In this document: one piece after another, positions 31,491 through 35,660 of the stretch
Position numbering within the stretch: the stretch's first letter is position 1
Layout of the letters: each line of letters starts with the position of its first letter
Assembly (NCBI GenBank): GCA_945874825.1
Contig: CAMCIK010000002.1
Location: 93,384-157,383 of the forward strand
Length of the DNA: 64,000 nt
DNA from: Phenylobacterium deserti
Lineage (GTDB): Bacteria > Pseudomonadota > Alphaproteobacteria > Caulobacterales > Caulobacteraceae
Direction of reading: 5' to 3'
The notes under the pieces: model-generated
Told to the model about the DNA's origin: nothing
Seen by the model: the letters and a program-made list of their open reading frames with translations, nothing else
The model's database searches: none
Made by a program: the position numbers and the translations under genes

Positions 31491-33191
31491 TCAGCGCCCC
31501 AGGCCCGGAAGGTCGAAGGCCGCCAGGGCGCGGCGGGTCAGGGCCGCGTCGCCAGACAGGCGGGCCGCGCCCGAGGCCTCCAGTTCGGACAGCCGGACCT
31601 GGCCGCACAGGGCCCTGACGAGGTCGGCCCAGGTCACGGCAACCGATGCCCCTGCGCCTGACCCATCCGTGGCGACACTGACGCCGTTGCGCACATGCAG
31701 GCCAGCGGGCTCGGCGTCCGGGAAGTCAAAACGGACATGGTGGTCGATCCCCTCGGCCCGGTCGGGGTCGATCATGACCCTCAGGACGTGCAGAGCCTCC
31801 CGCGGGGGCCGCCCCGCCAGCTGGGCCGGGCGCAGGCGGTGCTCGGCCACCCGCGACAGGTCCAGGGCGCCCTCCAGCTCCAGGGCCCGGGTCAGGCACC
31901 AGTTGCGGATATTGGCCGCCGAGGTCCCCTGGGCGAGGGCGCGCAGGACGCCCGCCAGCAGGGCCTGGTCACCGGCCTCCGCTTCGGGCCGCCCAACCAG
32001 CCAGGACGCCAGCTCCAGGGCCCAGCGCAGGTCGCCCGACGCCTTGGCTGCCGACGCCTGGGCGTGCACGGCATCGGCCCCGCCGAAGCCCTCCACCAGG
32101 CGATGCGCCCGCTCGGCCGGGGGCAGGACGAAGAGCTTGCCCGGCTCGCCATCGAACCAGCCGCGCAGGCCGGCGGCGATCTGGCGCACGTGGTGCTCGG
32201 CCACGCCATAAAACTCGCTGGTCAGGTAGTCGTCGTCGCAGGCCGCCGGCAGGCACACCTGGTGGGCCAGGGCGTCGGCGGTCAGGCCCCGGTTCAGGCC
32301 CCGGACGGTCTGGTCCCAGAGGAACTGGATCGAGTCGCGATAGCGGGTCACCCGGGCGGCGATCTCGGCGGCGCCCGAGATCGGCGGGCCGTGGGCGCCC
32401 ACCATGTGCTCCGCCCCCAGGGAGAGGATGTGGTCGATCCCGGCCAGCAGGACCTGGGGGTCGCGGTATTCCTCGCCGCGGATGGCGAAGATGTTGAACA
32501 GGGTCGGCCAGACCAGGTTCTGGACGCAGGTGCCAAGCTCGGGGAACCAGAAGGTGACGCTGTCGTCGGCGTCGGAGGGAGCGTGGTGGATCTCCACCGT
32601 CAACCCGGCCAGCGTCAGCCGCTCGCCGCCCCGGAAGAAGTCCGTGGGCGGAACATAGCCGGGGGTGAAGGGCGTATGCTCGGGATTGCGGAAGTTCAGG
32701 CCCAGGCCCGCGTTGACCGGGGCGTCGGGGCCTTCGGGGGGCAGGCGCAGACCGAACTGGCGGATCAGGCCCCGGGAATAAGCCGGGCCGATCTCGCCCG
32801 AGGTCCGGCCCAGGTTCAGGGGGATTCGCTCATGCCCCAGGATCGGCAGGTCAGCGCGACCCGCATCCTCCAGGGCCGCCGTCGTGCCGCCGATGTAGTG
32901 AAAGTGGCTGTAGAGCACCGCCGCCAGGGGCGCGGAGGTCTGGGCCCGCACCTCGGCCAGGGCCGTGCGCATCTCCTCCACGCTCTCGCCCGTGTCGATG
33001 GCGATCAGGCCCTGCGGCCCCTCGATGAAGGTCTGGTTGGACAGGCCATTGCCCACCAGGGTCCAGACCCCCGGCCGCACCGCGTGCAGCCGGCGCTCCA
33101 GCCGGGCGGAATGGTCGATATGGCGAAGGTGCGCCCTCTGGCCGAGGGGGCCCGTGCCAACCTGTGCCGGATCGGCGTCGAAACTGCGCAT
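31491..33191 (-). CDS. Alkyl sulfatase-like MBL-fold protein
   Basis: IDTGESVEEMRTALAEVRAQTSAPLAAVLYSHFHYIGGT, MVGAHGPPISG, sulfatase dimerisation region YLTSEFYGVAEHHVRQIAAGLRGWFDGEP. Confidence 0.8.
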   Translation of the reverse strand: MRSFDADPAQVGTGPLGQRAHLRHIDHSARLERRLHAVRPGVWTLVGNGLSNQTFIEGPQGLIAIDTGESVEEMRTALAEVRAQTSAPLAAVLYSHFHYIGGTTAALEDAGRADLPILGHERIPLNLGRTSGEIGPAYSRGLIRQFGLRLPPEGPDAPVNAGLGLNFRNPEHTPFTPGYVPPTDFFRGGERLTLAGLTVEIHHAPSDADDSVTFWFPELGTCVQNLVWPTLFNIFAIRGEEYRDPQVLLAGIDHILSLGAEHMVGAHGPPISGAAEIAARVTRYRDSIQFLWDQTVRGLNRGLTADALAHQVCLPAACDDDYLTSEFYGVAEHHVRQIAAGLRGWFDGEPGKLFVLPPAERAHRLVEGFGGADAVHAQASAAKASGDLRWALELASWLVGRPEAEAGDQALLAGVLRALAQGTSAANIRNWCLTRALELEGALDLSRVAEHRLRPAQLAGRPPREALHVLRVMIDPDRAEGIDHHVRFDFPDAEPAGLHVRNGVSVATDGSGAGASVAVTWADLVRALCGQVRLSELEASGAARLSGDAALTRRALAAFDLPGLGR

Positions 33192-33347: not shown

Positions 33348-35105
33348 ATGACCGATCCTGTTCGCGGATATGACGAACGCGCCGCCGTCTTTGTGCACCA
33401 GTATGAGCAACTCGACCCGGAGACGGTCCACGCCCAGTTCCTCGACTGCCTGCCGGAAGGGGCGGACAGGCTGGCCCTCGACATCGGCGCAGGATCCGGG
33501 CGCGATGCGGCCTGGCTGCGGCGAAGGGGTTTTGAGGTCATCGCGGTCGAACCCTCCCCTGGCATGCGGGTGGCGGGCCAGAGCCTACATCCGGACCCCC
33601 TGATCCGTTGGGTTGACGACAGGCTGCCATCCCTTGCTGCCACCCATCGGCTCGGCCTCGCCTTTGACGTCATCCTGCTGAGCGGCGTCTTGATGCATGT
33701 GACGCCCGAAGACCGGCCGCGGGCCTTCCGGAAGGTGGTCACCCTCCTGAAACCGGGCAGCGTCCTGCTCATCTCCGTCCGCGATGGTTCCGGCGAGAGC
33801 GACAGGCCCATGTGGCCGGTCTCCCGGGGCGAGGTCGAAAGCTACGCTCGGGCCCACGGGCTGAACATGGTCCGGATCGGCTCGAACCCCGACCTCCGGG
33901 GGCGGACAGCCGTCACCTGGACGACCTTCGCCCTGTCCCTGCCCGACGATGGGGCCGGCGCCCTGCCCCTGCTGAGGGGCATCATCCTGAACGACGACAA
34001 GTCCGCGACCTACAAGCTCGGCCTGCTTCGTGCCGTCGCCCGGATCGCGGACGCCGCGCCGGCCCTTGCGGTCGAGCGCGCGGACGAGGACGTCGTGGAC
34101 CTGCCGCTTGGAGCGGTGGCCCTCAACTGGCTCCGTATGTACCTACCCCTGGCGGCGGCGGGACTGCCCCAACTCCCCGGAAACCAGGGTGCCGACCGGC
34201 TGGGTTTCGCCAAGGACGCCTTTCGGCGCCTCCTTGCAGAAGGCGTCGTCGGGCAGGACCTGAGGATCGGGTCGACCTTCTCAGGGGAGAGGGCAGCGAC
34301 GCTGGCGAAGGCCCTGGCTGACGCCCGGAATACCATCTCCAGCATGCCTGCCCATTTCACGCGCTACCCGAACTCCGACGCACAGGTCTTCATCGCCAGA
34401 CCTGCCAAGCCCCTCGGGTTCAACGGTGAGATCATCCTCGATGGAGACACCCTGAGGTCGTTTGGGACCCTGGCCGTCCCGGGGCCGATCTGGCGGACCC
34501 TGCAAAGACTAGGAGCCTGGGTGGAACCGGTCCTTGTCAGTGAATGGGCGCGCCTGGTCGAAGGCTTCGCCGTGCGGATGGGGCGCAAGCTTGAGCCAGG
34601 GGAAGTCGAGGCGGGCCTTCGGTGGCTCGACCCGGAAAGGGACACCCGCCTCGCCCGTATGGTCGCGATCCAGCGCCTGGACCGTGGAGAGACGATCCAT
34701 TGCGTCTGGACAGGGAGTCGCCTGAAGCGGGACGCCTTCGACATCGACCACTGCCTTCCCTGGTCCGCATGGCCCTGCGGCGACCTTTGGAACCTGCTGC
34801 CGGCCAGCGCCTCGGTCAATCGCAACGAGAAGCGGGAGCGGCTGCCGGCCCCTGCCGCCCTCCATGAAGCGCGAAGCGGGATTACGGAATGGTGGCGCCA
34901 GGCCTGGGACGCCGACGAAGCCCTGGCACAACAGTTCCGGCGGGAAGCCGCGGCAGCGCTCCCGCTGCACGGTGGCGGCGACCTCGACGACATTTTTTCA
35001 GGGCTGGAATGGCGCAGGCTGCGCCTGAGACAGGACCAGCAGGTCCAGGAATGGGCGGGCCCCAAACCCAGGAAGTCGCCGGCTGCAACCAACGCCGAAT
35101 CTTGA
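33348..35105 (+). CDS. Fusion protein: class I SAM methyltransferase plus HNH endonuclease
   Basis: N-term LALDIGAGSGRDAAWLRRRGFEVIAVEPS; C-term IHCVWTGSRLKRDAFDIDHCLPWSAWPCGDLWNLLPASASVNRNEKRERLP (HNH). Confidence 0.85.
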   Translation: MTDPVRGYDERAAVFVHQYEQLDPETVHAQFLDCLPEGADRLALDIGAGSGRDAAWLRRRGFEVIAVEPSPGMRVAGQSLHPDPLIRWVDDRLPSLAATHRLGLAFDVILLSGVLMHVTPEDRPRAFRKVVTLLKPGSVLLISVRDGSGESDRPMWPVSRGEVESYARAHGLNMVRIGSNPDLRGRTAVTWTTFALSLPDDGAGALPLLRGIILNDDKSATYKLGLLRAVARIADAAPALAVERADEDVVDLPLGAVALNWLRMYLPLAAAGLPQLPGNQGADRLGFAKDAFRRLLAEGVVGQDLRIGSTFSGERAATLAKALADARNTISSMPAHFTRYPNSDAQVFIARPAKPLGFNGEIILDGDTLRSFGTLAVPGPIWRTLQRLGAWVEPVLVSEWARLVEGFAVRMGRKLEPGEVEAGLRWLDPERDTRLARMVAIQRLDRGETIHCVWTGSRLKRDAFDIDHCLPWSAWPCGDLWNLLPASASVNRNEKRERLPAPAALHEARSGITEWWRQAWDADEALAQQFRREAAAALPLHGGGDLDDIFSGLEWRRLRLRQDQQVQEWAGPKPRKSPAATNAES

Positions 35106-35148: not shown

Positions 35149-35472
35149 CTACTTCCGCTTTTGCTTCCGGGCGACGTAGCGGAGGTCGCGGGCTTCTTTC
35201 TGGCGGGCGCGGAGGTCCAGGTCACGGGCTTCCTGGGTGATGGCCTCATCTTCCAGGCGCAGGCGCTCGGCCTCGGCGGCGGCGGCGCGCTTGGCGTCGC
35301 GCTCGGCGTTGCGGGCGGCGCGGACGGCCTCCAGCTCGGCGGCGGCAGCGGCCTTGCGGGCCTCGAGATTGGGATCAATGACGTGGGGCTTGGGTTTGAA
35401 GCGTTCCAGCATCGCCTTCTTGGCGGCGGCTGCCGTCTCCTGGCGTTCTGCGCGCTCTGCAATTTTTTTCAT
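35149..35472 (-). CDS. DUF6481-like small charged protein
   Basis: ERFKPKPHVIDPNLEARKAAAAAELEAVRAARNAERDAKR... Confidence 0.65.
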   Translation of the reverse strand: MKKIAERAERQETAAAAKKAMLERFKPKPHVIDPNLEARKAAAAAELEAVRAARNAERDAKRAAAAEAERLRLEDEAITQEARDLDLRARQKEARDLRYVARKQKRK

Positions 35473-35585: not shown

Positions 35586-35660
35586 TGGAGCGGGCGAGGC
35601 GATTCGAACGCCCGACCCCAACCTTGGCAAGGTTGTGCTCTACCCCTGAGCTACGCCCGC
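35586..35660 (-). tRNA. tRNA-Gly (GCC), CCA encoded
   Basis: Minus strand GCGGGCGTAGCTCAGGGGTAGAGCACAACCTTGCCAAGGTTGGGGTCGGGCGTTCGAATCGCCTCGCCCGCTCCA; cloverleaf with GCC anticodon. Confidence 0.97.

Follow-up and report, generated by a model that had tools for sequence, protein, structure and literature searches.

An open reading frame of 585 amino acids in Phenylobacterium deserti places a class I SAM-dependent methyltransferase in front of an HNH endonuclease. It lies in the window, the 64,000-nt stretch of contig CAMCIK010000002.1 analyzed here. The locus raises two questions: whether such a fusion is a genuine gene, and what a methyltransferase could do for a nuclease in the same chain. 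The first-pass annotation, made from the sequence alone, had described a single-gene nuclease effector whose methyltransferase acts as modifier, sensor or self-protection. The features of the gene and its surroundings are collected in Table 1.

One gene, two modules

The fusion gene is a single coding frame under purifying selection, with a dN/dS of 0.10–0.23 in each of three gene segments when the window gene is compared with its two nearest homologs. The same architecture recurs: counting the window protein, 34 fused sequences were aligned, and the others are 33–92% identical to it (tblastn). Since one selected frame is accompanied by this recurrence, the fusion is neither due to chance nor an assembly artefact. 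In the 585-aa protein, Pfam recognizes Methyltransf_11 (PF08241) at residues 44–142 (1.4e-13, 51.7 bits, cut-off 21.2) and HNH_4 (PF13395) at residues 452–500 (2.1e-5, 24.8 bits, curated cut-off 22), and nothing known is matched between them. The domain fusion first read from the open reading frame has thus been confirmed. In the closest homolog pair, the window gene and L001, dS is 0.075 in the methyltransferase and 0.65 in the HNH part (34668-35063), a jump that points to recombination at the 3' end.

Table 1. Features of the fusion gene and its flanks (window coordinates)
Feature	Position	Strand	Basis or remark
Flanking metallo-beta-lactamase/alkylsulfatase-like gene	31491..33191	-	context, not part of system
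Methyltransferase-HNH fusion gene, 585 aa	33348..35105	+	ORF, ATG start; 34 fused sequences aligned; dN/dS 0.10-0.23
Class I SAM-dependent methyltransferase domain, residues 1-200	33348..33947	+	Pfam PF08241 at 44-142; AF2 domain compared with PDB
SAM-binding motif I, residues 45-53 (DIGAGSGRD)	33480..33506	+	D45, G47, A48, G51, R52, D53 invariant in 34 sequences
Middle region, helices and few strands, residues 201-440	33948..34667	+	invariant R210, K218, K223, L226, R228, R232, W261, W391, W400
HNH_4 nuclease core, residues 452-500	34701..34847	+	Pfam PF13395 above curated cut-off
Predicted HNH catalytic Asp467-His468 (DIDH)	34746..34751	+	invariant in 34 fused and four stand-alone homologs
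HNH Asn482 (LWNL)	34791..34793	+	invariant in fused and stand-alone homologs
HNH Asn491	34818..34820	+	invariant in fused and stand-alone homologs
C-terminal helical tail, residues 501-572	34848..35063	+	conserved W515-W516, P539, W569
Flanking DUF6481-like gene	35149..35472	-	context
tRNA-Gly(gcc) beside variable slot	35586..35660	-	context

The N-terminal domain has a Rossmann fold, a glycine-rich motif I and an acidic residue after strand 2, which places it among the class I SAM-dependent methyltransferases. The SAM pocket residues D45, G47, A48, G51–D53 (R52 included) and E68 are invariant across the 34 fused sequences, as are Y8, Y19, D91, H117, W191 and D200–G202 of the N-terminal part. 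In the AF2 model of the whole protein (pLDDT 78.5), the Rossmann domain is confident. The closest PDB folds of the modeled domain include 3e23, RPA2492, glycine-sarcosine methyltransferase, thiopurine methyltransferase, TehB and UbiG, and its structural relatives are mostly small-molecule or protein methyltransferases. The TehB, RPA2492 and UbiG-type enzymes share fold and sequence similarity with the window domain but carry no nuclease.

At the motif IV position, none of the 34 fused sequences has a [DNS]PP[YFWH]-type (N6A/N4C) motif, in agreement with the first reading of the gene, or a recognizable C5 (PC) catalytic motif. Stray loose matches occur elsewhere in the chain in two sequences: L002 has DPVH at residue 3, and L165 has PCE at residue 155. 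The methyltransferase also scores far below every curated NCBIfam cut-off. Taken with the closest folds, the missing DNA-methylase motif and the low scores make the protection of host DNA by base methylation unlikely. The domain appears to be intact, and of a small-substrate rather than a DNA-modifying type.

The HNH_4 family includes the HNH domain of Cas9. The window protein has the D-H ... N ... N residues of this family's beta-beta-alpha-metal motif, and in the 34-sequence alignment, from which the conservation of HNH residues was taken, D467, H468, N482, N491 and K495 are invariant. The invariant residues of the C-terminal part also include K218, K223, R228, W261, W391, W400, W454 and W481. 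HNH_4 is matched at E<=0.01 by 16/16 members of the C-terminal alignment, the stand-alone ones included. The C-terminal 380 residues are matched over their whole length, at 21–25% identity and with the same invariant residues, by stand-alone HNH proteins of Nostoc, Tolypothrix, Deinococcus and Hymenobacter, in which K218, K223, W261, W382, E399-W400, C452, W454, D467-H468, W481-N482, N491 and K495 are kept. The HNH module proposed in the first-pass annotation is therefore borne out by a score above the curated cut-off and by residues invariant in fused and stand-alone homologs alike.

These stand-alone relatives, named "HNH endonuclease domain-containing protein", have no methyltransferase and begin with the middle region. 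As the stand-alone proteins carry the middle region too, this region belongs to the nuclease module. The C-terminal part alone, modeled by AF2 from an input alignment of nine rows, reaches pLDDT 79.3 and pTM 0.81, with a confident, mostly helical middle region (pLDDT mostly 80–96 at residues 205–430); residues 201–440 have no match in the PDB at E<=0.001. The HNH core is modeled at a pLDDT of about 44–70 and finds no significant PDB match. With the fold modeled at this low confidence, the domain is assigned as HNH from the HMM match and the motif. Compared with other HNH_4 proteins, the window protein adds the methyltransferase and a conserved region of its own, and no guide-RNA module is seen in it. 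Pfam finds no modified-base reader domain (SRA, EVE etc.) in the fusion protein, which sets it apart from Type IV modification-dependent nucleases.

Distribution and gene neighborhoods

When one genome per species was scanned, nine further full-length homologs (39–92% identity) and one truncated copy were found. Nine more fusion copies occur in plasmid records of Sinorhizobium, Sphingobium, Roseomonas, Azospirillum and Pseudoalteromonas; those that are annotated are labeled only as methyltransferase. The C-terminal profile has matches in 22/399 Pseudomonadota genomes, the window's own included, and about 16 (about 4%) have a full-length copy. The full-length copies are open frames of 571–643 aa, and in two genomes they are broken over more than one frame or stop. 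The 385 Alphaproteobacteria contain three complete fusion genes and one split between contigs besides the window gene, and none of the 35 other genomes of the same genus has a full-length gene.

Each half is also found alone. Cyanobacteria, Deinococcus and Bacteroidota encode the C-terminal 380 residues as a complete protein, and solo methyltransferases related to the N-terminal 200 residues show 34–39% identity. The solo methyltransferases (L012-L015, phi458 Orf3 and a Sphingopyxis plasmid protein) have the same motif I as the window protein, without the nuclease. The gene is therefore a two-module fusion. In the tree, a branch with support 80/93 separates the fused methyltransferases from the rest; the fusion probably arose in a single event, with which the tree is compatible without proving it.

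Carriage as phage cargo has been rejected, as phage records contain no full-length fusion copy and viral contigs contain only one fragment of the family, 116 residues long and adjoining a terminase-like gene. Several solo or separate relatives have settings of their own. In phage phi458 (L035:2336-3519) and the Sphingopyxis plasmid (L037:4558-5588), the frame of the solo methyltransferase overlaps the gene of a small hydrophobic, membrane-like protein that precedes it, and the Sphingopyxis gene also adjoins a cysteine desulfurase gene and a DUF4007 gene. On a Streptomyces plasmid (L036:4950-6080), a related methyltransferase is followed by what looks by eye like a GNAT-like acetyltransferase domain in one 376-aa chain. 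An Allochromatium plasmid (L060:3495-6390) encodes a distant HNH_4 protein in a similar layout, near a separate class I methyltransferase gene whose product is 32% identical to the window domain (4e-14). A small gene often precedes stand-alone HNH genes, but the small proteins differ between loci, and the idea of a paired regulator has been rejected.

Around the fusion gene itself, no constant partner is found across the sampled loci, nor the conserved small neighbor expected of a toxin-antitoxin pair. It is thus probably a solo unit, as first annotated. HNH_2 genes lie near several copies; they were rejected as a recurrent partner, since mainly the HNH region is common to them and the N termini differ apart from close relatives.

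Many neighbors belong to mobile elements or defense systems. By eye, the Phenylobacterium kunshanense copy adjoins trb/virD4-type conjugation genes, and Brevundimonas copies adjoin relaxase, ArdC, AbiE, ParB or integrase-like genes (AbiEii confirmed by PADLOC). PADLOC matches beside fusion copies are SspC and SspA (L007), AbiE (L004, L132), PDC-M33 (L132), DdmDE (L169), Lamassu LmuAB (L173), a Ptu-type ATPase (L179), a HerA/MzaE-like protein (L178) and PDC-M65AB (L167), with AbiEi also among them. McrC is annotated beside one Roseomonas copy. Helicases of the mREase_IV type, also matched by PADLOC and 62–68% identical, lie beside the copies in L172, L173 and L174, and the fusion gene and this helicase may form a recurrent association.

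Across 15 phylum-wide loci, 72 neighbor genes match 121 PADLOC models at 1e-20, and 71 control genes, taken from arbitrary places in 14/15 of the same genomes, match 2; the models are redundant. Counted by gene, at least 13/69 neighbors are PADLOC-positive against 2/71 controls (one-sided Fisher p=0.002); three genes added to the neighbor set by eye (L165:17509, L178:349, L173:15195) are left out of this count, and one of the 13, an SNF2 helicase in L176 with DpdE/ZorD matches, is probably generic. Counted by locus, the difference is 7/15 against 2/14 (p=0.07), or 7/15 against 0/14 (p=0.004) with two generic control matches discounted. The neighbor genes were called with a simple in-house script. 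Enrichment beside known defense genes, which the first-pass annotation had proposed to score, is present in this small comparison and weaker by locus. The copies in L008, L131, L133, L170, L175 and L177 adjoin ordinary genes, which counts against a defense reading.

Proposed role and alternatives

We consider the fusion gene, with a probability of roughly 0.6, to be a stand-alone, horizontally mobile conflict gene, whose HNH_4 nuclease acts against phage or plasmid DNA under the control of the methyltransferase. As its relatives are scattered across bacteria on plasmids, conjugative elements and defense islands, it probably works by itself against phages or plasmids, as a weapon not yet described. 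The architecture, the active-site conservation, the purifying selection, the patchy and mobile distribution, the defense neighborhoods and the occurrence of each half alone are seen directly; DNA as the target, defense as the role and regulation or sensing as the task of the methyltransferase are what we infer.

The HNH_4-type domain would nick or cut DNA, and the conserved middle region, which matches no known fold and always accompanies the nuclease, would probably recognize DNA or another substrate. An apparently active SAM methyltransferase of the small-substrate type would have been added in one fusion event. Cleavage would either restrict incoming phage or plasmid DNA or kill the infected cell. 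The methyltransferase may control the nuclease through methylation of its own polypeptide, of an RNA, or of a nucleotide or other small molecule, without marking host DNA. Since the nuclease exists alone elsewhere, the methyltransferase appears to be an add-on rather than an essential antidote, and its proposed role in self-protection is not upheld. A more specific and improbable reading is a SAM-gated HNH DNase: an active methyltransferase with a non-DNA substrate, such as the nuclease itself, tRNA or a nucleotide, would control the DNase of its own chain, and DNA would be cut once SAM or the methylated product is lost in the course of an invasion. SAM gating, if true, would be a mode of immune activation that has not been found described in any known defense system.

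A related but rather unlikely explanation is a regulated toxin or abortive-infection effector, in which host DNA or another nucleic acid would be degraded by the HNH domain once the methyltransferase senses a cue, such as the loss of SAM through phage SAM-degrading enzymes, or no longer keeps a target methylated. The invariant SAM-binding residues, the lack of an obligatory partner and the abortive or toxin-type neighbors (AbiE, PtuA, Lamassu) agree with it. However, conservation extends beyond motif I, suggesting catalysis and not mere ligand binding. Competition between elements or element maintenance, rather than phage defense, would explain the plasmid-borne copies, the adjoining conjugation genes, relaxase or ArdC, and the anti-plasmid system DdmDE beside one copy; it is improbable, as many copies are chromosomal and lie in defense islands without conjugation genes nearby. 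It is more improbable still that the gene has no part in conflict and encodes an accessory metabolic or RNA-modifying methyltransferase with a merely structural HNH domain. Solo family methyltransferases without HNH, some in ordinary contexts, and the vertical slot in three close species would fit such a role, but all HNH catalytic residues are invariant, the neighborhoods are enriched in defense genes and the distribution is patchy and mobile.

Self-contained restriction-modification, with the N-terminal domain methylating host DNA and shielding it from the HNH nuclease as in fused Type IIG/IIC enzymes, is very unlikely. Type IIG enzymes also combine methyltransferase and endonuclease in one polypeptide, and restriction or methyl-directed restriction genes are frequent neighbors of the fusion gene. 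The window protein differs from them in having no DNA-methylase motif or recognizable target-recognition domain and in its different nuclease, and Pfam, PADLOC and the fold and motif comparisons do not place it among Type IIG/IIC systems. The catalytic position shows neither an N6A/N4C nor a recognizable C5 motif in the 34 sequences, the best structural relatives mostly methylate small molecules or proteins, and no PADLOC restriction-modification model is matched. Moreover, the stand-alone HNH relatives lack the methyltransferase, and their sampled neighborhoods contain no close relative of it, the distant Allochromatium case excepted.

PADLOC recognizes only a partial match to Mad2 of MADS, whose model mad2 is matched by the methyltransferase core (5.1e-13 over 133 residues) at model positions 270–402 of 492. 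No other mads genes are recognized beside the window gene, unlike in multi-gene MADS. PADLOC has no model dedicated to the fusion protein, of which only the methyltransferase part is matched, and the plasmid records name only a methyltransferase, so that a family spread across Pseudomonadota has stayed hidden. Stand-alone HNH and SRA-HNH nucleases have been described as auxiliary effectors in phosphorothioate and BREX papers (PMC10853773, PMC12839542). A description of the methyltransferase-HNH_4 architecture was not found in the open-access full texts searched, a scope that gives no proof of novelty. If defensive, the gene would represent a compact single-gene system, in which the control enzyme, a small-substrate methyltransferase, is joined to an HNH_4 nuclease by a region without known fold.

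The chromosomal slot in close relatives

The window copy stands alone between the alkylsulfatase-like gene and DUF6481/tRNA-Gly, as had been annotated. It lies in a core chromosomal region and not in a defense island, which counts against a defense reading. Three close species, the window's included, have the fusion gene at this one slot, with 92% identity in L001 and 88% in L002, whose contig ends before the upstream neighbor. The first-pass annotation had held that synteny, vertical inheritance and housekeeping co-occurrence across the order would speak against a conflict role. Such inheritance is seen in this close clade; in general the family is patchy, found on plasmids and conjugative elements and enriched beside defense genes.

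What lies in the slot between the metallo-beta-lactamase gene and DUF6481/tRNA-Gly varies among relatives. Genome G455 (L010) keeps the methyltransferase (89% over residues 1–209), and other genes take the place of the remainder, up to a second DUF6481 copy; the replacement genes (L010:10628-16213) include a VapC-like toxin, recognized by eye, and an HTH-peptidase-like protein. In G034, the metallo-beta-lactamase gene is absent from the slot too. G449 has no fusion gene, but 16 nt at its junction still match the 3' end of that gene exactly (L121:5010-5040). This remnant makes deletion at least as likely, and G449 has been rejected as a clean ancestral empty site. Downstream of the slot, a reverse-strand ORF of 432 aa (window:35740-37038) is strongly conserved in relatives over its C-terminal 192 aa (76–99%), and the first half of the long plus-strand ORF over the same interval is probably noncoding.
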